Shown in pieces: positions 591 to 19,371 of a stretch of DNA of 33,416 nt. The position numbers and the translations under genes were made by a program. Every line of letters begins with the position of its first letter. Position 1 is the stretch's first letter. Origin of the DNA: Candidatus Absconditabacteria bacterium (GTDB taxonomy: Bacteria; Patescibacteriota; Gracilibacteria; Absconditabacterales; Absconditicoccaceae); assembly GCA_028685875.1 (NCBI GenBank), contig JAQUDD010000009.1, positions 1 through 33,416 of the forward strand, given 5' to 3'. The notes beneath the pieces are model-generated. The model was not told the DNA's origin, searched no databases, and was given only the letters and a program-made list of their open reading frames with translations.

Positions 591-1838
591 ATGGTATACT
601 CACATTCGCAAGTACAATTATACAAACAATGCGAACTTAGGTATGCCTATAAGTATATCGACAGAATACCAGTACCAGCTGAAGCAAGCTTACATCTGGC
701 GCTCGGTACGAGCGTGCATGGCGCACTCGAATTTCTCTACAAAGAAGTCCAAAGACTCAAAGTACCATCCAAAGAAAGTATATTGGAAGAATATCACAGT
801 ATCCGAAACGAACAAATCACCAAAATCCAAGAAGAAAACAAAAGAAGTCAGCTCGACCAACAACAAGTGGCTGATTTTGCGCATATGGGAGTAGAATACA
901 TCAACTGGTACTACTCTACCTATCATCCATTTGATCAGTCAATAGTGATGTCCACCGAAGAAAAAGTTTTCCCAAAACTCGACGATGACATCAAATTTAG
1001 ATGACAGATAGATCGTATTGATACACAAGATGACACCTTCACTATCGTTGATTATAAAACAAGCAAAAGATATCCCAAAGATACCGACGAGACATTCAAA
1101 GATCAGATCAACCTCTACGGACGAGCCATCAAACAAAACTATGGCAGTAAATTCAAAAAACTCATCGCCAAAATTGTCTATCTTCACCTCAGAAACGAAA
1201 TAGCACGAGAAGTGACAGACGAGGAAATGGAAAAAACAAGAATCAAGTACTCCTCTATCATCCAAGAAATTATTAAAAAGACACAAAGACGATCCAATGG
1301 AGACAAAGAAGCATTCAAACCAGTTCAATGATATCGATGTGACTCCTGCCCTTTCAAGATGATCTGCCCCCTCTTTGCGCACAACTATATCCACGATGAG
1401 GCAGTCAATCTTGACGATATGAAGCCAACCACCATTAAAGCAGTCATCGACGAAATGGCACAGATGGCCTATGAAATCAAAAGGCTAAAAGAACAAAAAG
1501 ATTCATACGCTAAAATTCTCGGAAACTATGCAGCAGAAAAAGGATACAAAAGACTCTATGGAAACGAGAACAAGGTCATCATAGGAAAATCAGAGAACTA
1601 CTCTCCTCTACCAGAAAAGAAAAATGAACTTGAAAGTAAACTTGCAAGTGAAAACATGCTTGATGATGTTGTAGACATAGATCGCTTCAAACTCACTAAG
1701 AAATTTAAAGAACATGAACTCGACTACGATCAATACCAAGACCTTGTTAAAAAATCTGTCAGTATCACCGCACAAAGACCAAGTAAACTCAAAGAAAAAG
1801 AGATAGACGAATATATGGATATAATTGGTGAAGAATAA
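591..1838 (+). CDS. PD-(D/E)XK nuclease, Cas4/RecB/AddB-like, with Fe-S cysteines
   Basis: 415 aa with two in-frame UGA read as Gly. The N-terminus has the RecB-family opening (SHSQVQLYKQC, then GTSVHGALEFLY with H43). The nuclease core is QIDRID (D141) followed by TIVDYKTSK (D154, K156). C14 together with C250, C253 and C259 (CDSCPFKMIC) matches the four-cysteine Fe-S pattern of Cas4/AddB nucleases. The family cuts or resects DNA ends; here I infer a DNA-end or invader-DNA processing role. It is the first gene of the operon, 25 bases ahead of mod. I start at ATG 591; a TTG at 576 is in frame but less likely. It is not part of a CRISPR locus: no repeats or cas1/cas2 are present. The family call is firm; the role in this operon is inferred. 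Confidence 0.85.
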
Positions 1839-1863
1839 TTATTTACTTATACACTCCTTGCTT

Positions 1864-3624
1864 ATGTCATTTCACGAAAATCTCATTACATTACTCAAAA
1901 CACACGATGCCTTTGTAGATATAGAGGGCGATCTATTACAATCGGCTGTCATTGATGCTGCATACAAGATCAATCCGGATCTTATCAAACTTCTCATTTC
2001 TGACCCAGCCATCAAGAAGAAGTTTTTTTCTGAAATAGAAAAACACCGAGTATTTGATATAAACACCTTTGTCGATTATGTAGCAGACAAGAACTTTCTC
2101 AACGATAGCTACACTAAGTTCAAAAACAAAATAGGACTGACAATAGACGAAAAATCACTTCGTGAAAGATGAGAAGTGGCACTTGTACGACCATATAAAG
2201 ACTGTATCCTCGAATGAGGTATGACCAAAGAAGACCAAAAACGCAAAGAGATATTTTTCAACCAAGTACTTGCACAAGACGAGATAGACAAACTCCTTGA
2301 ACCCAAAGTATTAACCAACCGAAAAAGATACACTGTCGATGGCGAGCAAGCTGTTAGAGAGATCAAGAGAGATGAAGAATGAACTATCAGAGAAAATCTC
2401 ATCATCAAAGGAAATAATCTCCTCGCACTTCATAGTCTCAAAAAAGAATTTTCTGGGAAAATAAAATTGATCTATATTGATCCACCGTTTAATACAGGAA
2501 ATGACACCTTTTGATACAATGATTCATTTGGGCATTCAGCACGGCTTACCTTTATGAAAAATAGGTTAGAAGTAGCTAAAGATTTGTTATCAAGTGATTG
2601 AAATATATTCATCCACATAGACATCAATGAAATTCATTATTTAAAAGTTCTATGTGATGATGTTTTTAAAAGAGAAAACTTTGTAGAAGAAATAATATGG
2701 GCATATTGATCACCATCATGATGAAGAGCTGCTGGAGCAAAACCAGTTAACATACATGATACTATTTTACACTACGCAAAAGACTATTCACAAAGAACAC
2801 AGAATAAAGTTTATATTCCATATTCAGAGAAATATGTAGCTGATTGGTTCAAATATACAGATGATGATTGAAGGAAATACCAAAGGAGAATGAGATGAAA
2901 AGATGAAAATTGAAATTCTATATGGGTAAAGCAATATTTGGACGAAAGTAAAGGTGTTCCACTATCAACGGTATGGACAGACATTAAACAAGTATATGCA
3001 GATCCTAGAGCATATAAAGAGAATCAATCTCACCATACAGAGTTAATGAGAGATTTTTCATGATGACAAAAACCAGAATCTCTACTAAAAAGAATTATAG
3101 AAATGACAACGAATGAATGAGATATCGTATTGGATTATCACCTTTGAACAGGAACAACAGTTGCTGCTGCACACAAAACATGAAGACAATATATTTGAAT
3201 TGAACAAATGGACTACATAGATAGCTATACAGTGAATCGTCTAAAAGATATTATACAAGGTAAGCAAACAGGTATATCAAAAGAAATAGATCGACAATGA
3301 TGATGAGATTTTATCTATTGTGAATTAGCAAAATATAACGAAAATTTCATTGATCGCATTAAAGAAGCAGTAGATACAAAGAAATTGCTCTCTATCCGAG
3401 AAGATATGAAAGAAAAATCATTTCTCGACCGAAATGTAGATCTCAGTGAATTAGAAACTGCAATGGAAGAGTTTATGGGACTGTCTCTTGACAAACAAAA
3501 ACAAGCTCTAGTTGAACTCCTTAACAAAAACCAACTCTACATCAACCTCAGCGATAGAGACGATCAAGATTTTGCTATTAGTGAAGAAGATAAGGAGATG
3601 AATAGAAAGTTTTATCAGTTATAA
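1864..3624 (+). CDS. mod: Type III restriction-modification DNA methyltransferase (Mod)
   Basis: 586 aa. Mod carries target recognition and methylates adenine N6 in type III systems. Catalytic motif IV DPPF lies at residues 206-209 (IYIDPPFNTGND) and the SAM-binding motif (LDYHLGTGTT) at 423-432, the beta-class order typical of type III Mod. The N-terminal 180 residues are helical and variable, as usual; the region between the motifs should hold target recognition. About 20 of 34 Gly codons are UGA by hand count, including the first Gly of the SAM motif and a run of three UGA near 3298-3306. It ends 2 bases before the next gene, so translation is probably coupled. Start ATG 1864 gives the usual N-terminus; an upstream in-frame GTG at 1825 would overlap the previous gene. 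Confidence 0.93.
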
Positions 3625-3626
3625 AA

Positions 3627-3842
3627 ATGAAAATGGAAAGACAAAGTGTAAGTTCTAGTAACATTAATTCGATCGGTTATGATGAAGAAACTCAGATCCT
3701 CGAAATAGAATTTAATCATGGTTGAATATATCAATATTTCTGAGTATCCGAATCAGAGTACAATGGAATAATGAATGCATGATCAATCGGGACTTATTTT
3801 CATGATAATATAAAAGATAAGTACAATTACAGTAAAGTTTAG
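3627..3842 (+). CDS. KTSC-domain protein
   Basis: 71 aa, essentially a single KTSC domain: SSNINSIGYDEETQILEIEF, then a GGIYQYFGV block, then GTYFHDNIKD and YNYSKV at the C-terminus. KTSC (named after the C-terminus of some lysyl-tRNA synthetases) is a small fold often met in phages and accessory genes, and is thought to bind nucleic acid. Three UGA codons fall at conserved Gly positions (NHGGIYQYFG, NAGSIG), and without table 25 the gene is invisible. It sits 2 bases after mod and 15 before the OLD-like gene, on the same strand, so it belongs to the operon. Its job there is unknown; a small accessory or regulator is possible. Confidence 0.8.
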
Positions 3843-3857
3843 CATTAAAAATTATTC

Positions 3858-5711
3858 ATGATAGTAAAAAAACTTATACTTGAGAACTTCCGTAGTTATA
3901 AAAACCAAACAGAGATAGATATCAATCAAGATATGACAGTTTTTATATGAAAAAATGATATAGGGAAGTCAACGATTCTAGAAGCATTAGATATATTCTT
4001 TAATTGAAAAGACGCTGTCGTAAAATTTAGTAAAGATGATCATACAATAACAAATATTTGATGAGAAACAATAATTTGAGTAGTATTTGAGAATTTTCCA
4101 GAAGAAATAATTTTGGATACCTCTGTACAGACGACACTCTCACAAGAATATTTATTAAATAAAGACTGACTTCTAGAAATACACAAAAAATACACATCTT
4201 GAAGCGAAAAAGAAACATATATAGTCTGTCAGCATCCAAATAATGATGAGCATATTTCTGATTTATTAAGTAAAAAAATAGCGGAATTAAAAACAATAGT
4301 CGATAATAAATGACTAACCTGTGCAGACAGGAGAATTGCTTCAGAATTAAGAAAAACCATTAGAGAAAGTTACAGTATTACTACTTGTGATACAAAACAG
4401 ATATCCATAAAGGAAGAATGAGCAAAAAATATACGAGATCAGATAAGTATCCATATGCCGATATTTGCACTCTTTCAATCCGACAGACCAAATAAAGACA
4501 AAGACAATGAAGTACAAGATCCGCTTAAACTAACTATACAGGAAATATTAAAAGACCCTGAATTGATTGAAAAATTAAACGATATAGCAAACGAAATAAA
4601 GGAAAAAACAAAAATTGTTACAGAAGAAACACTAAAAAAGCTTAGTGAAATGAATCCAGAAATTGCTTCTGAATTACATCCATCAATGCCTGATAACGAT
4701 AAACTAAAATGGAATAGTGTCTTTAGCACTATAGAAATCATGAGTGATGGTTGAGTTCCATTAAATAAAAGATGAAGTGGAGTAAGAAGATTGGTTCTAA
4801 TAAACTTTTTTAGAGCTCAAGCAGAAAAAAGAAAAAAATTAGACAACAAAACAAATATAATTTATGCCATAGAAGAGCCTGAAACATCTCAACATCCAGA
4901 ACATCAGAAGAAACTACTGTCGGCACTTATTGAGTTATCAGAAGCTAACAACACTCAAATACTACTAACTACGCACAGTCCAGCATTAGCGCAATTAACA
5001 CCAAGGAAATCTATTAACTTAATAGAGAAAAATTGAGATAATATGGTAATAGGAAACAATAACGATAATGTATATTTAAAAATAGCAAATGAACTTTGAA
5101 TTTTACCAACACTATCAAAAATCGTGGTATGTGTAGAATGAAAAAATGATATAATTTTTCTCTCAAACATTAACAAAGGCATAGAAGAATTTGGGAATAT
5201 AGTAGATTTATCAAAATTTTCTATTATTCCTCTAAGCTGATCAAATCTAAAAGTTCGAGTACAAAAACATTATTTACAGGATTCAAATATAGCAGAATTT
5301 CACTTATATGATAGAGATCCAGACAATCAATACGCTGGTGAAGAATCAACAATAAACACAAGATGAGATTGAAGTCATTGTAAGTTAACTAACAAAAGAG
5401 AAATGGAAAACTATATTCCAAAAGAATTAATAGAAGCAGAATTCCAAATAACAATAGATGAAAGTTTAGATTACAATGAAATAGACCTACCAAAAAAAGT
5501 TCTAGAATCTAGTCCTATAGATATATATGTGGAAGCAAGAAATGAATGATGAGACAAAAGCAAAAAAGCAATAATGATTATAAAGCAAATTATGAACTGC
5601 AAATTATCAAAAGATATATCACGCGAATCATTAAATGATAATGATTTTAACGAAATAAAAAGTCGATTTGAGAAAATAGCAGAAATGTATCAATCATGTA
5701 TTCAATTATAA
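3858..5711 (+). CDS. OLD-family ATP-dependent endonuclease (AAA ATPase + TOPRIM)
   Basis: 617 aa. An SMC/ABC-type ATPase begins at the N-terminus (LILENFRSYKN) with Walker A GKNDIGKST at residues 31-39, where the first Gly is UGA. A helical insert rich in charged residues spans about 190-270. The signature and Walker B region follows (RGSGVRRLVLINFF, then YAIEEPETSQHP and LLTTHSPALAQL). A TOPRIM nuclease domain follows, with VVCVEGKNDIIFL (E427) and the acidic YDRDPD (D485, D487). This is the domain order of OLD nucleases, which cut DNA and are the effectors of several phage-defence systems, such as GajA of Gabija. No GajB-like UvrD helicase is adjacent. About 19 of 26 Gly codons are UGA. Its location between mod and res suggests a role in the same defence response. 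Confidence 0.88.
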
Positions 5712-5722
5712 CTTATAAAAAC

Positions 5723-8359
5723 ATGTCCACAACCCTCCTATACCAACAGTTCGATACTCTCTCCCAATTTGGTGCAATACCCAAAAATATTTCTGCTACC
5801 ATCAAAGATAATCTCAATCCAGAATTTGCAATCCGTCCCTATCAGATAGAAGCATTTTCGAGATATAACTACTATGTAAACAATCAATTTGAGGGAAAAC
5901 AAACTCCACCATATCATCTCTGTTTCAATATGGCAACAGGAAGCGGAAAAACACTCATCATGGCATGACTCATAGTAGATCTATACGAGAAATGACACAG
6001 AAATTTTCTCTTTTTCGTCAACTCCAACAATATCATCATCAAGACCAAAGATAATTTTCTTAACTCCTCATCCAAAAAATTTCTCTTTGCACAACAAATC
6101 GTTATAGACAACATAACCGTCCCTATCGTGGAAGTAGACAATTTTGAAAACAGCAATCCAAATGCTATCAATATCTGTTTCACCACTATACAAAAACTTC
6201 ATAGCGACTTATATAACGAGAAAGAAAATCAGATCACTCGAGAAGATTTTCGCAAATACAAAGTAGTTCTTATCTCAGATGAAGCTCACCATATCCAAGC
6301 AGCGACTAAGAAGAAGAAACAAGAGACTGAGCTTATAGGAAAACCTAGTCGAGAAAATACCGTAGAAAAAATATTTAAAGCAAATACAGAAAATCTACTT
6401 CTAGAATTTACTGCAACACTTTTTGATGATGCCAATCAAGCAGTGATGGATAAATATGCGGACAAAGTCCTCTTTCGCTATGATCTCAAACAATTTAGAC
6501 TGGATGGATACTCCAAAGATATTTACACACTCGCAAGCGATCTAGATACAAGCGATAGAGTCCTACAAGCAATTATTCTCAATCAGTATAGAGAAGAAAT
6601 AGCAAGAAAACACAATATTTTTCTCAAGCCTGTTATCTTATTCAAAGCAAATCAAAAAATTGAAGAGTCCAAAAACAATCAAATATTGTTTAATAGCATT
6701 ATAGAAAATCTCAGTCCAAAATGACTTGATGAATTGAGAAAAAAAGTGACGGATCCTTTGATTATCAAAGCACTCAACTTTTTTACAGAAAATAAAATTA
6801 CCGATACCATACTTATCCAAAAACTCCAACATAACTTTGCTCCCAACAAGTGCATCAATGTAAACGAGGAAAACCTTGACAAAGCAAGCATAAAGCAGTC
6901 AGACAAAAAAGAACTACTATCACAACAGACATTACTCAATTCTCTAGAAGATAAAAACAATCAAATTAGAGCAATTTTCTCAGTCAACAAACTCAATGAG
7001 TGATGGGATGTTCTGAATCTTTTTGATATAGTCAGACTCTATGATCTCAGAGATGGAGATTGGATGAAAGATGGATCATACAAACCTTGAAAAACTACTA
7101 TCGCTGAAGCACAACTCATTGGTCGTGGGGCAAGATACAATCCATTTACTTATGGAGAATATACCAATAAGTACACCAGGAAATTTGATAACGATCTGGA
7201 AAATGATCTAAAAATATTAGAAGAACTACACTATCATAGCATAAACAATACAAAATATATATCAGAACTAAGAAAAGCGCTTATCGACAAATGATTGATA
7301 GATGAAAATATCGTAGAAAAAGAGCTTAAACTAAAAGACTCATTTACACAAACCAACTTTTTCCAAACAGGGATTATTTATCTCAACAAACCCATCAAAA
7401 ACAACTATGAGAAAGTAAAATCATTTAGTGATTTTGGTATATCCAAGAAGAACATAATCCATAAAATTGCTACTGGAAAAACTCAAAAGGCATCACTCAT
7501 GGATACGACACAAAGCATCAGAGAAATGTCCACATACAGACAAGACAAAAAAATTACCGATCTTCCATTTCATGTCATCCAAAACGCAATCGCCAAGCAT
7601 CCATTTTTCTCATTCAACAATATCACTATATACTTCCCAAATCTCACATCTACGACAGAATTTATCACCAGTGCCGATTTTATGGGCTGATTAGAAATAA
7701 CTTTTGAAGGTCTACTTGATCCATCATGACATATCCCACACAAAGAAATTATGCAAGCTCTTCACAATATGCTCGATGAAATAGAAAAAGAACTCAAATC
7801 CAATATGCAAGAATTTACCGGAACAGAAGTATTTAACCCACACCAACTCAAAGATATATTCCATGATAAAGTACTCCGTATCAGACAAGGAGACGAGAGA
7901 GAAGATGGACAAGAATCATTTGTTGCAGACAAAGAACGATTCGCTTTCAATGCAAATTTCGGAACAACAGAGGAAAAAGCATTTGTCAGTATGTTTGATA
8001 GAATGATACAAAGACTTCAAGAACAATTTGATGATATTTACCTCATGAGAAATGAACTCCATTTTAAGATATATAACTTCAAAGATGGACAAGCATTCGC
8101 TCCAGACTTTGTCTTATTCCTCAAACAAAAAAACGGAGAACAGCTTACTTATCAGATGTTTATAGAACCAAAATGAGCACATCTGAAAGAAAATGACAAA
8201 CGAAAAGAAGAATTCCTCAGAGAGATAAAAGACAAATTCAAGGATAATCTCCTCACATTCAACGAAAGTAAAAAATACAAAATCACAGGAGTTCCTTTCT
8301 ATAACAATGCCGAAGAAAATACTTTCAAACAAACCTTACATGACGAAATCAGTGCCTAA
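5723..8359 (+). CDS. res: Type III restriction enzyme Res subunit (SF2 helicase + nuclease)
   Basis: 878 aa, near the usual length for Res. Helicase motifs in order: Q-motif-like RPYQIEAF (38-45), Walker A ATGSGKT (71-77), SDEAHH, FTATL, NEGWDVLNLF and LIGRGARYNP. The C-terminal nuclease has APDFVLF (D795) and FIEPKG (E815, K817), the PD-(D/E)XK core. Res uses ATP to translocate on or switch along DNA and cleaves with Mod when sites are unmodified. Nine UGA codons are read as Gly, including the G of NEGWDV and of EPKG. Start ATG 5723 lies 11 bases after the OLD-like gene; an ATG at 5696 overlapping that gene is in frame and also possible. All catalytic motifs are present, so the enzyme looks functional. 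Confidence 0.93.
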
Positions 8360-10533: not shown

Positions 10534-11730
10534 CTAGTGTACTAATTCATAGGTATCTTTCGCTATCATATATTCTTCATTGGTTGGAACTACGATTACG
10601 GTTACTTTACTTTCTGGTGTAGAGATTACCCTCTCCTCTCCTCTGAAATTATTCTTTTCTTCATCGAGTTTTACTCCAAGCCATTCTAGTTGATCGACAA
10701 TAAGTTTTCTTTCAACTGCTGAATTTTCTAGGGTACCAGCTGTTAAGACAATTACATTAACACCATTCATATATGCTGTATATGCTCCAATATATTTTAG
10801 AATTCTGTTGGTATACACCTTGATTACCTCAGTTTCTAGTTCTTTTCCTGCAACAAATCCCTCTTCAACCTCTCTGTGATCGCTAGAAATGTTATTCATC
10901 AATCCTAGGATTCCAGATTTTTTATTCATCATCGCATCTATTTCATTGATACTTAATCCTTCGTTCTTCATTAAGAAAGGTATAATGGCAGGGTCAATAT
11001 CTCCGCATCTGGTTCCCATCATCAGTCCTTCAAGAGGAGTAAATCCCATAGATGTATTTACTACATTCCCATTCTTGATAGCTGTGATGCTTCCTCAGTT
11101 TCCAACATGACAGGTAATAATCTTCGTATTTTTATATTCCTTTCCTAGAATTTCACAAGCTCTATGGCTGACATAGTCGTGAGAAGTTCCATGGAATCCA
11201 TATCTTCTGATTCCGAGTTTTTCATAATATTCACGAGGAATTGCATATAAGAAATGTTCAGGTTTCATTGTTTGATGGAACGCGGTATCAAATACTGCGA
11301 TATTGGGTACTTCAGGAAGCGTTTTTTCACATGCTTCAATCCCTATTAGATTTGCGGGGTTATGTAATGGTGCCAAGGGAATTAAATCTCTGATCGTATT
11401 CTTCACCTCATCGGTAATGAGTACTGAACTTTTGAATGCTTCTCCTCCATGTACTACTCTGTGTCCTACTGCATTAATTTCTTCAAGACTTGAGATAGCT
11501 CCTTGTTCAGGGCTTACCAATATCTCTAATATTTTTGTTAATGCTTCACTATGATCAGCCAAATTTCCGGGAAATTCTGATTTATTTCCTTGTCCATCTT
11601 TGTGTTTGATAAGTCCTCCATCAATTGCAATTCTTTCTGCATTTCCACTTGCGATTACCTCGTTATTATCTCGGTTGAACAGTTGGTATTTCAACGAAGA
11701 ACTTCCGGCGTTCAGTACTAAAATTTTCAT
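10534..11730 (-). CDS. ackA: Acetate kinase
   Basis: 398 aa, the normal length. Interconverts acetyl phosphate plus ADP with acetate plus ATP, a substrate-level ATP source in fermenting cells. Family motifs: ILVLNAGSSSLKYQLF at the N-terminus, HRVVHGGE, DTAFHQTM, RRYGFHGTSHDYVS, and GFTPLEGLMMGTRCGDIDP. One UGA falls at the conserved second Gly of the GNGGSI phosphate-binding loop. The start at ATG 11730 gives the canonical N-terminus; an in-frame ATG at 11745 adds five residues. It is divergent from hisS with a promoter for each in the gap. No phosphotransacetylase is adjacent. Confidence 0.97.
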
Positions 11731-11766
11731 CGTTTTTTCTTTCATAAAAATAAAATTACAGCTCTC

Positions 11767-11795
11767 TTTATACTAAAAGTATGAGAGAAAAGCAA
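11767..11795 (-). promoter_or_regulatory. Promoter of ackA
   Basis: On the minus strand TTGCTT (11795-11790), 17-base spacer, TATAAA (11772-11767), about 37 bases upstream of the ackA ATG. Confidence 0.6.
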
Positions 11796-11826
11796 TGAGA
11801 AATCAGACTTATTTCTTCTATAAGCC

Positions 11827-11854
11827 TTGCAATCTTCCTACAATCTTGTATATT
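11827..11854 (+). promoter_or_regulatory. Promoter of hisS
   Basis: TTGCAA (11827-11832), 16-base spacer, TATATT (11849-11854), about 30 bases before the hisS ATG. Confidence 0.5.
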
Positions 11855-11883
11855 TTCTTTGATTTATTTTGTTAGATGTATGT

Positions 11884-13200
11884 ATGGCACTCCGTCCAAG
11901 TGGTTTTGTAGAATATAGTCCTTCAGAACAGTTAAAATTTGACCAATTAGTAGAGATTATCAAGAGAAATTATGAGAGATTTTGATATACTCATATTCAT
12001 ACCCCCGCTGTGGAAGCGAATACTGTTCTTCTTTCTAAAAATGGGGAAGAGACCGGGAAGCAGATTTTTGGACTCTATGGATTAGCACAAGGAGCTGAGG
12101 ATTTAAAGGACTACTCTCTTCATTTTGATCTTACTGTGCCGTTTGCGAGATATGTATTAGATAGAGAGTCTGAACTTACGCTTCCTTTTAAGAGATATCA
12201 GATTCAACCTGTTCGACGTGGAGAGAGGGCTCAGAAAGGGAGATTTAGGGAGTTTTTTCAGTGTGATTTGGATGTAATTTGGAGAAAAGATTCTGGGAAA
12301 TCGTATTTGTTTTACGATGCAGAGGTGATTTTCAATTCTCTTCTTACTTTACAGGATATTTTGGAACAAATGGAAATTGATGATACTGTGGTGATGCATA
12401 TCAGTAATAGAAAGTTATTAGCAGGATTTTTGTTGTCCGTGGTTTCTCAGGACCAATTACCATCAGTTAGTAGCTTAATAGATAAATTTCATAAAATCTG
12501 ATTGGAAGGTTTTCTTTTGTCTTTACAAGATCTTGAATTGAGTATTGATCAAGCAAAAAAAATTGCTGATTTCGTGGGACATAAGGTGGATTTGGACTCT
12601 TTGGATGCAATTCTTAATCGATCTGAAAGTGCACTCTTTCAACAAGGAGTGTTAGAGCTTAAAGAAGTCTTAACTACTTTAAAACATTTGGAACAATGAT
12701 TTGGTAAGAAGGTTTCTTATCAAGTAGATTTTCAGATTGTTCGTGGGTTAGATTATTATACAGGGACGGTATTTGAAGCGACGCTCGAAGGAGATAAAAA
12801 ACTTGGATCTATTTATGGAGGAGGAAGTTATGAAAACTTGACGGGATATCTGGATCCTAAGAGGGATTTTTATGCGGGAGTTTGAGGATCAATAGGGATT
12901 ACGAGACTGCTCTCTAAGATTTTTGAAGAGAAATCCTTTTCTCAGAATACAGTTGTAGAATATTTGCTTGTTAACTTTCCCGAGACTGTAGAAGATATTT
13001 ATGCTGTGGCAGGAAGACTTGTTGCAGATGGGAAACATATTGAGCTCTATCCGACGGTTGATAAGCTTGGGAAACAGTTTGCTTATGCGGATAAAAAGGG
13101 AATCCCTTATGTGGTCGTTTTGGGACAGGGAGAAAAAGATCAAGGAATCTATAAGATTAAGGATATGAAGACAGGAGAAGAAGGGATTCATACCCTCTAA
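11884..13200 (+). CDS. hisS: Histidyl-tRNA synthetase
   Basis: 438 aa class II synthetase charging tRNA-His. Motif 2 is seen as RRGERAQKGRFREFFQCD. The HisRS signatures LVRGLDYYTGTVFEA-like (IVRGLDYYTGTVFEA) and YGGGSYENL are present, motif 3 is GVGGSIGITRL, and a C-terminal anticodon-binding domain covers about 355-438 (VEYLLVNF onward). Four Gly are UGA, among them the first Gly after GV in motif 3. Start ATG 11884; two other ATGs just upstream are out of frame. It is followed after 75 bases by galE, which has its own promoter. Confidence 0.96.
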
Positions 13201-14987: not shown

Positions 14988-15575
14988 ATGCATATTATTT
15001 CTGCAGAATTTATTACGAGTGCGGCAAAGCTTTCTCAGTGTCCTGAAGCTCAATATTCCGAATTTGCTTTTTTTGGGAGATCAAATGTGGGTAAGTCATC
15101 GCTTATCAATATGCTTACTCAGAGAAAAGAGTTAGCGAAGTTCTCGAATAAGCCAGGAAAAACCAGACTTTTCAATTTTTTCCTGATTAATAATGCTTGG
15201 ATGCTTGTTGATCTGCCAGGATATGGATATGCCAAAGCTTCAGATAGGGAGAAGACACAGTGGCTTGATTTAACGCAGGAGTTTTTGATGAAGAGAAATG
15301 CCTTGAAAAAGATATTCCTTTTGATTGATGCGAGTATTCCTCCTCAGAAGATTGATCTAGCGATGATTGAATCTTTTGTGGAAGAAAATATCGATTTTGC
15401 TTTGGTGTTTACCAAAAATGATAAATGATCTCAAAAAGAAAGAAGTAAAAATTTGAGGATTTTTAGGCAAGAATTACAAAAAATTACCAAAACTCCCCCA
15501 CTCCTCTTCTTTGTTTCAAATATCTCTTGAAAAGGTAGAGAAGAACTACTCTTTTATATTGAGTCTCTGGTATAA
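14988..15575 (+). CDS. ysxC: Ribosome-biogenesis GTPase YsxC/EngB
   Basis: 195 aa, typical size. Involved in 50S subunit assembly. G1 GRSNVGKSSLINML, G2-like GKTRLFNFF, G3 VDLPGYGYAKAS, G4 FTKNDK and the C-terminal SNISGKGREELL are all in order. Two UGA codons are read as Gly, the first directly after TKNDK, the second in the SGKG loop. ATG 14988 gives MHIISAEFITSA, matching the family start; the frame is open upstream but that part is Phe-rich junk. Divergent from smpB. Confidence 0.94.
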
Positions 15576-17748: not shown

Positions 17749-18651
17749 TTATTTCCATAAATTTCCTGGGTATTCTCCCTTTGAGATCAGCTTCTTGATA
17801 TTTTTTTTGGTTTCTTCTTTGTCTTCTGGATAGGTAACTCCAAATCGTTGAGCGGTTGTTGGGAGTACAAGAACCTCTCCTCCCTCTTGTGTCATTCGCT
17901 GAGAAAGTGCGACAGGCATTAAAAATTCTGTTGTGGGATGATTTATATTTTCTTCTAGGAATTCTACAAAGTATTTTTGGAAAAAGGGAATAATCTCTGG
18001 TGTGAAGCCCATCATATTCATTGAGCAGAGATCATCATTATTGAGTTCTTCTGTTCCTCCATCAGCTGCTTCAAAAAGAATTTTATCTCCAGATGGATAG
18101 ATTTTCTTAATTTCGGTAACTTTGATAAGTTTTCCGTGATCGTCTAGACTACAAACTCCTCTAGAAACCGTTCCGTGTTTTGAAAGCACCTCAGACAGTT
18201 GATACCCTACAATTGAGCATTTACCAACATTCTCTGGATTTTTTAGAAAATTTGCGAGTGTCTTATAACTTTGTTCTCCATAAAAATCATCGGCATTAAT
18301 TACCGCAAATGGTTCGTTGATATACGTTGTTGCAGCGAGTATTGCGTGTCCTGTTCCTCGGGGTTTTTCTCTTGTTTCGGGAAGTTTAAATCCTTCCGGA
18401 AGGGCATTTTTTTCTTGATATGCGTATTCTACTTTAATTTTTCCATTTAATTTATTTCCGATACGATCTTTGAATTCTTCTGCAAAGTCTTGTCTAATAA
18501 CAAAAATTACTTTATTAAATCCTGCTTTTATTGCATCATAGATGGAATATTCCATCAAGATTTCTTCATTGGGTCAGAATCCATCAAGTTGTTTGAGTCT
18601 CCCGTATCTGCTTCCCATTCCTGCTGCTAAAATCACAAGTGTTAGATTCAT
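17749..18651 (-). CDS. Sugar-phosphate nucleotidyltransferase family protein
   Basis: 300 aa. The N-terminal NTP-transferase signature is LVILAAGMGSRYGRLKQLDGFG (last Gly UGA), followed by EEILMEYSIYDAIKAGF. A NADDFYGEQ block (metal-binding Asp) lies at about residue 112. The family moves a nucleotide to a sugar phosphate or similar acceptor; this subgroup is often simply annotated nucleotidyltransferase, and the substrate cannot be read from sequence. One UGA. ATG 18651 puts the signature at the N-terminus. It may supply the UDP-sugar pool used by GalE, though it is not next to galE. Confidence 0.85.
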
Positions 18652-18771
18652 AGTATCATGAGAGAGAATATAAAAATCTGACTTCTCTTTCTTTATAGGA
18701 GTTGCCTGGAATTTAGCAAGAGAATCTTTATGTTTTTTGCTTGTATTTCTCTCTTTTTTTATAATGTACAC

Positions 18772-18802
18772 TTGTCTACCAGACAAAAACACCTCATATA
18801 GT
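18772..18802 (+). promoter_or_regulatory. Possible promoter of the 18.83-kb leader RNA
   Basis: TTGTCT (18772-18777), 19-base spacer, TATAGT (18797-18802). Spacing is slightly long; a transcript would start near 18809, just ahead of the leader structure. Confidence 0.35.
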
Positions 18803-18832
18803 ATGCACGAAAGTAGCTACTTCAAAAAAATT

Positions 18833-18931
18833 ATACGATAAAGTTAGACACATAGCCTAACTCTTAAAATCGTATGATTTCTTTGAGGTTGTTGTTTGGT
18901 AGACACATTTGTAGGTTATGTGTCTTTTTTT
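18833..18931 (+). promoter_or_regulatory. Structured leader with terminator / antiterminator pairing
   Basis: ATACGAT (18833-18839) pairs with ATCGTAT (18869-18875), enclosing GTTAG (18843-18847) / CTAAC (18857-18861). An intrinsic terminator follows: AGACACAT (18901-18908) with ATGTGTCT (18918-18925) and a T-run. The 9-mer TAGACACAT occurs twice (18845-18853 and 18900-18908), and AGACACATA (18846-18854) can pair with TATGTGTCT (18917-18925). So the first copy can compete with the second for the same 3' strand, the logic of an attenuator or riboswitch. It ends 21 bases before the SemiSWEET-like gene. No known riboswitch class recognised. Confidence 0.55.
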
Positions 18932-18951
18932 ATTTTTTTAAATTTTATGGT

Positions 18952-19371
18952 ATGACGAGTATTTTCTTTACTTTAGTGGTGGCAGCATACGGAATTAGTG
19001 GGATTATTTCTCTCTTTGGATATCTTCCTACGGTAAAGGATTTATGGAAAGGAGTCCCAAGTGCAAATTTTTATACCTATATTACTTGGCTTATTTATTA
19101 TCTTATTTCTTGTCTTTATGGAATTTTTATTTTGAAGGATTGGCTTTTTATTTTGGTAAATGGTTTATTGGATAGTATTTTTTTGGTATTGATTATTATT
19201 TTGATTTCTCGTTTACAGACTCATGAAATTATTGCTGATGTTAAAGAAAGAAAAAGAAAAGTTGTTGCTCATATACAACACAAAAAAATAAAAGTAATAA
19301 GACAGATTAAAGAAAAGAGACCAAAGATAGTAGGATCTATTAAACAGAAGGTCAAATTATTGAAAAGATAA
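18952..19371 (+). CDS. SemiSWEET/PQ-loop-like membrane protein
   Basis: 139 aa. Three transmembrane helices in residues 1-88. GISGIISLFGYLPTVKDLWKG resembles the first helix and PQ motif of SemiSWEET sugar transporters, with Pro-Thr in place of Pro-Gln. Helices two (YITWLIYYLISCLYGIFIL) and three (DWLFILVNGLLDSIFLVLII) follow. The last 50 residues are a basic, probably cytoplasmic tail (KERKRKVV...IKQKVKLLKR). SemiSWEETs are half-transporters that dimerise to move sugars; the substrate here is unknown. ATG 18952 fits the family start. Sits behind an attenuator-like leader and its stop abuts the stop of the convergent M20 gene. Confidence 0.65.
   Translation: MTSIFFTLVVAAYGISGIISLFGYLPTVKDLWKGVPSANFYTYITWLIYYLISCLYGIFILKDWLFILVNGLLDSIFLVLIIILISRLQTHEIIADVKERKRKVVAHIQHKKIKVIRQIKEKRPKIVGSIKQKVKLLKR

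Follow-up and report, generated by a model that had tools for sequence, protein, structure and literature searches.

A candidate transcription attenuator with two competing folds precedes a SemiSWEET-like gene in a bacterium that reads TGA as glycine

The stretch of DNA analysed here (the window) is contig C7, 33,416 bases long, from a genome of 1.03 Mb. Long reading frames appear along it when TGA is read as glycine, as in NCBI table 25 (code 25), used by SR1 and Gracilibacteria. The leader described below is flanked on its 5′ side by a minus-strand nucleotidyltransferase gene that starts near position 18651, and on its 3′ side by a plus-strand SemiSWEET-like gene. No Pfam family matches the encoded protein, and a profile of its relatives compared with solved structures gives 4rng, a member of the MtN3/saliva (SWEET) family, as its sole and best match (E 0.49). 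Because this match is weak, SemiSWEET is a plausible candidate name for the gene product and is unproven.

The leader and the SemiSWEET-like gene together (18652-19371) sit between the nucleotidyltransferase gene and a gene for an M20-type peptidase. Genes of these same two types adjoin each other, with ~85 bases between them, on contig C17 of genome G005, which belongs to the same genus as the window species. Therefore, the leader and its gene are jointly present at this site in the window and are jointly absent from it in G005. Elsewhere in the window (1825-8359), by-eye reading of the translations suggested consecutive genes resembling a type III restriction-modification pair (a DNA methyltransferase and a helicase/nuclease), separated by a gene for an OLD-like ATPase/nuclease.

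The original prediction drew attention to a nested hairpin (ATACGAT/ATCGTAT around GTTAG/CTAAC), and to a 9-mer, TAGACACAT, that occurs at 18845-18853 and again at 18900-18908, with a single complement, TATGTGTCT, at 18917-18925 followed by a run of T nucleotides. All of these elements are present as described, and the nested hairpin corresponds to the apical hairpin P3/P4 (Table 1). The repeat by itself is only mildly unusual: of dinucleotide-shuffled versions of the stretch, 2.4% contain a 9-mer repeat, as do 8% of the 99-nt segments of this DNA. What goes beyond chance is the retention of all these pairings, with compensatory changes, in the three related copies described below. The extent first proposed, 18833-18931, does contain these elements but is too short, given that the domain continues ~60 nt farther in the 5′ direction. 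This omission left out the long P1 helix, which competes for the 5′ arm of the terminator by using that arm for its last five pairs. Folding of positions 18771-18935 yields -45.3 kcal/mol (z = -4.9), and none of 200 shuffled sequences is as stable. Transcription is expected to start at approximately 18771-18773, as predicted from the promoter-like site.

Table 1. Predicted features of the leader and the gene that follows it (window coordinates).
Feature	Position	Strand	Basis
Promoter-like site: TATAAT (18760-18765) and weak -35 TTGCTT (18737-18742)	18737-18765	+	Sequence, inferred
Whole structured region	~18772-18931	+	Folding; TATAAT box just 5′
5′ hairpin TTGTCT-ACC-AGACAA, also the 5′ strand of P1	18772-18786	+	Self-hairpin possible in 4/4 copies
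P1, 14 bp (18773-18786 with 18892-18905)	18773-18905	+	Folding and covariation
P2, 6 bp (18791-18796 with 18884-18889)	18791-18889	+	Folding and covariation
Small hairpin, differing from copy to copy	18800-18821	+	Folding
Possible leader peptide MHESSYFKKIIR; its TAA stop lies within the conserved TAAAG motif	18803-18841	+	Open reading frame
Apical hairpin: P3 (18828-18838 with 18870-18880) and P4 (18843-18847 with 18857-18861)	18828-18880	+	Folding and covariation
Apical loop copy AGACACATA, complement of terminator 3′ arm (18917-18925)	18846-18854	+	9/9 pairs, 4/4 copies
Intrinsic-terminator-like hairpin AGACACAT/ATGTGTCT (18901-18908 with 18918-18925), then U-tract	18901-18931	+	Sequence
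SemiSWEET-like gene (candidate name), 139-aa membrane protein	18952-19371	+	Weak match to 4rng (E 0.49)

A covariance model (R1) made from the window copy alone was run against 353 genomes of the class and returned full-length matches at G012:C19:9051-9203 (E 2.2e-7) and G005:C2:8235-8390 (E 9.6e-4), both with a -10-like box on the 5′ side and a terminator-like end. An improved model (R2) revealed a second copy in G012 at 15305-15473 (E 4.4e-4), 6 kb from the first, and a final search of 40 genomes with model R3 found no further copy. These searches score a limited number of candidates per genome, and the E-values derive from a shortened calibration. Thus the relatives comprise one copy in another species of the window's genus (G005) and two in a single genome (G012) from a different genus of the same family. 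An independent search, with a pattern based on the sequences of the apical loop and the 3′ arm of the terminator, picked out the window's genome, G005 and G012 again and gave no control match among the matches listed. Weak model matches in other genomes (E 0.02-1) were inspected and rejected, as the complementarity between loop and terminator was absent.

Other searches were negative. Apart from the window, comparison of the DNA with 99 relatives gave nothing but short matches of low complexity, and the leader is single copy in the window's own genome. Genome contigs searched by protein and by a P1 pattern gave no match, pattern searches of viral contigs gave either nothing or chance matches in sequence that appears to be protein-coding, and the leader was not found in the plasmids and phages searched. 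Among the candidates scored per genome, the element thus appears to be rare and patchy within one code-25 family.

A lack of conserved pairing in relatives had been set beforehand as grounds for abandoning the original prediction, which survived this comparison. All three relatives carry the same P1, P2 and P3/P4 helices and the terminator, and across the four copies these helices and the pairing of the loop with the terminator 3′ arm are shown by the alignments to be conserved through compensatory changes. For the main helices, 21 of the 33 pairs are changed on both sides and 97% of cells are paired, a level reached by none of 500 shuffles, with the caveat that these counts were made on an alignment (A6) that was fitted to the model and is hence biased towards it. 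Two-sided changes in the four copies of A6 affect 8 of 14 pairs in P1 (98% paired), 5 of 6 in P2, 6 of the 8 counted pairs in P3 and 2 of 5 in P4.

Pairing between the apical loop and the terminator was evaluated on a plain MAFFT alignment (A7) made without structure. The loop and the 3′ arm form 9 of 9 pairs in each of the four copies (100% paired), the partner sequences being AGACACATA/TATGTGTCT, GGACGTATA/TATGCGTCC, GGACACATA/TATGTGTCC and GGAGGTATA/TATGCCTCC. Three of these pairs carry two-sided changes, and none does when the partner is slid. The arms of the terminator are less completely paired with each other (84% of cells in A7, where the 5′ arm of the fourth copy is partly misplaced). 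Every copy retains a hairpin followed by CTTTTTT; the terminator stem is short and AU-rich, and that of the fourth copy is weaker. Predicted duplex energies (loop with 3′ arm/terminator arms) are -10.4/-9.1, -11.6/-8.4, -12.1/-7.5 and -15.0/-8.7, such that the loop duplex is the more stable one in every copy. With the pseudoknot energy left out of account, the two full folds differ by about 3 kcal/mol at most. Because P1 also overlaps the 5′ arm of the terminator, two folds of nearly equal energy would compete. The A7 pairing, its two-sided changes and these energies are our main evidence that the competition between the loop and the 5′ arm for the terminator 3′ arm is under selection.

A terminator hairpin and U-tract thus precede the gene, together with an alternative pairing that excludes the hairpin, and the terminator/antiterminator architecture first proposed is supported by the sequence, the energies and the conserved pairings. 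The antiterminating pairing of the repeat had been thought to need the opening of the nested hairpin. Its competing role is upheld, but the pairing opens at most two pairs at the top rather than the whole hairpin, and is probably a pseudoknot in which the apical loop binds the 3′ arm of the terminator. Our favored reading, held with somewhat more confidence than doubt, is that this RNA forms the 5′ leader of a transcript with a single gene and attenuates transcription by means of two folds that exclude each other. In the ‘ON’ state, the 5′ end would pair into the long P1, the base of which captures the terminator 5′ arm, while the terminator 3′ arm and the apical loop would pair as a pseudoknot, permitting RNA polymerase to read into the gene. 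In the ‘OFF’ state, the 5′ end would fold on itself and the terminator arms would pair together before the U-tract, causing transcription to stop ahead of the gene. Switching would therefore involve two concerted exchanges, wherein the 5′ end trades itself for the P1 3′ strand as a partner and the terminator 3′ arm trades the 5′ arm for the apical loop. The choice of fold would be set by a signal that acts on the apical loop, on the P2-P3 domain or on the timing of P1 formation. Transcription of the leader, termination at the hairpin, the default fold and the nature of the signal are all points that we infer from the sequence.

No known RNA class accounts for the leader, in agreement with the original prediction. 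Rfam 15 applied to the window matched only a tRNA, and no riboswitch, T-box or leader family. At a relaxed threshold the leader gave only six chance-level matches to unrelated gene families, and the three relatives returned only a neighbouring tRNA. Terminator/antiterminator riboswitches have a folded domain closed by a P1 stem, and the 3′ strand of this stem also contributes to a terminator hairpin ahead of the gene. The leader resembles them in that its P1-closed domain has a 3′ strand that also serves the terminator, but it differs in matching no known class, in preceding unrelated genes, and in having a terminator 3′ arm that also pairs with the apical loop. In pT181-type plasmid attenuators, one arm of the terminator is contested by a leader segment lying upstream of it, as is the case here; however, no antisense RNA or replication gene is visible, and both terminator arms have competitors. 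Because the leader is rod-shaped, 6S RNA (RF00013) was also considered, which it resembles in its long rod shape, its length of ~155 nt and its terminator. This identity was rejected, since 6S RNA gave no match in the window's genome, the weak matches found in relatives map to different loci, and four copies placed before genes do not fit it. Sub-threshold 6S matches (E 4e-8 to 3e-7; G010:C6:43560-43703, G008:C34:3240-3391 and G051:C37:5884-6039) lie in genomes of the same family or class, have rod-like folds, and are possibly diverged 6S RNAs below the Rfam cut-off.

The genes that follow the four copies bear on what the switch might sense. The copy in G005 precedes a gene for a 139-aa protein without a family, and the two in G012 precede genes for secreted-type proteins with signal-peptide-like N-termini. 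Functionally related downstream genes are usual for a riboswitch class, though not strictly defining, and unrelated ones are unusual; no obvious common function is apparent here. Moreover, SemiSWEET homologues found elsewhere, including two paralogues in the window's own genome, all lack the leader. Because the linked genes differ, the SemiSWEET-like gene gives no clue to the ligand, and the sugar-related ligand suggested at the outset is unsupported. The same observation weighs against a strict riboswitch, wherein the P2-P3-P4 domain would directly bind a metabolite or ion that picks the fold. Such a version draws on an aptamer-like folded domain that is linked to the terminator through a P1 that has sequence in common with that terminator, and on a conserved loop sequence, but no Rfam class matches and the conserved letters are mostly those required for terminator pairing. 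We consider it possible, at rather long odds.

A broader proposal, which we put forward tentatively, is that the leader represents a new riboswitch-like class of the code-25 (Gracilibacteria-type) lineage. In such RNAs, P1 would hold one terminator arm and a pseudoknotted apical loop the other, and the genes joined to them would be unrelated ones for envelope or secreted proteins. The response might be to something general, for instance host contact or the state of translation.

Somewhat less plausible than direct ligand binding is a stand-alone structured small RNA that has its own promoter and terminator, acts in trans, and lies before genes by coincidence; the loop-to-terminator pairing would then be part of a mature pseudoknotted fold. 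Its promoter-like start, its terminator, a length typical of many small RNAs (~155 nt) and the unrelated downstream genes are compatible with this idea. A TATAAT or TATAGA lies just 5′ of two relatives, and a clear -10 is absent from the fourth copy. However, a start codon occurs on the same strand 21-58 nt past the U-tract in all four copies, although with only four copies a shared strand would arise by chance about 1 in 16 times. The spacing is 21 nt in the window, which leaves scant space for a second promoter. Also, the two G012 copies resemble each other between U-tract and start codon, which is the pattern that joint duplication of the leader and the beginning of the gene would leave. 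Near these copies on contig C19 are two large-serine-recombinase-like genes (11155-12816, and from 19083), suggesting a mobile island. On balance, a cis-acting leader is clearly favored over a stand-alone RNA.

The attenuator could be controlled by a ribosome, which, upon reaching the stop codon of a leader peptide, would cover the copy of the repeat in the apical loop and free the terminator 3′ arm to form the terminator. Three of the four copies carry short open reading frames (MHESSYFKKIIR, MRLKIFRKG and MVSDCSNRK, of 12, 9 and 9 codons) that end at one conserved TAA, with a chance of ~0.08-0.10 per copy, and the spacing from the stop codon to the loop copy is constant. A possible short frame whose stop adjoins a competing pairing segment, as in these three copies, recalls the leader-peptide attenuators of the trp, his and erm type. 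However, the fourth copy has CAA in place of the TAA and has no such frame, a clear ribosome-binding site is absent in two of the three copies that do, the peptides have nothing but basic residues in common, and the pattern was spotted post hoc. Furthermore, no run of codons for a single amino acid is present, and no biosynthetic or resistance gene follows the leader. A ribosome-based version is possible, and is not general because the frame occurs in three copies and not in the fourth; we judge it improbable. Both this and the strict riboswitch are sub-types of the attenuator reading, and so our confidences in the various readings need not sum to one. Hairpins arising by chance in AT-rich sequence, or a mobile-element end, might account for the patchy distribution and for the pair of copies near serine recombinase genes in G012, but are very hard to reconcile with the compensatory changes, with arms lacking the sequence conservation of transposon ends, and with the single copy in the window's genome.

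The leader is probably a real, previously undescribed gene switch, because the three related copies keep its folding despite changed sequences. The support comes from four copies in three genomes of one taxonomic family, and the best reading is a new attenuator or riboswitch-like leader family that is rare and patchily distributed in one code-25 family. A covariance model started from a single sequence was able to expand one observation into this small family. Our search of the literature on regulatory RNAs of such ultrasmall bacteria found almost nothing. If our interpretation is true, this conserved two-state leader would provide a concrete cis-regulatory element, open to testing, in a lineage whose genetic code is altered. 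The way its apical loop pairs with the 3′ arm of the terminator would also make an instructive variant of attenuation.
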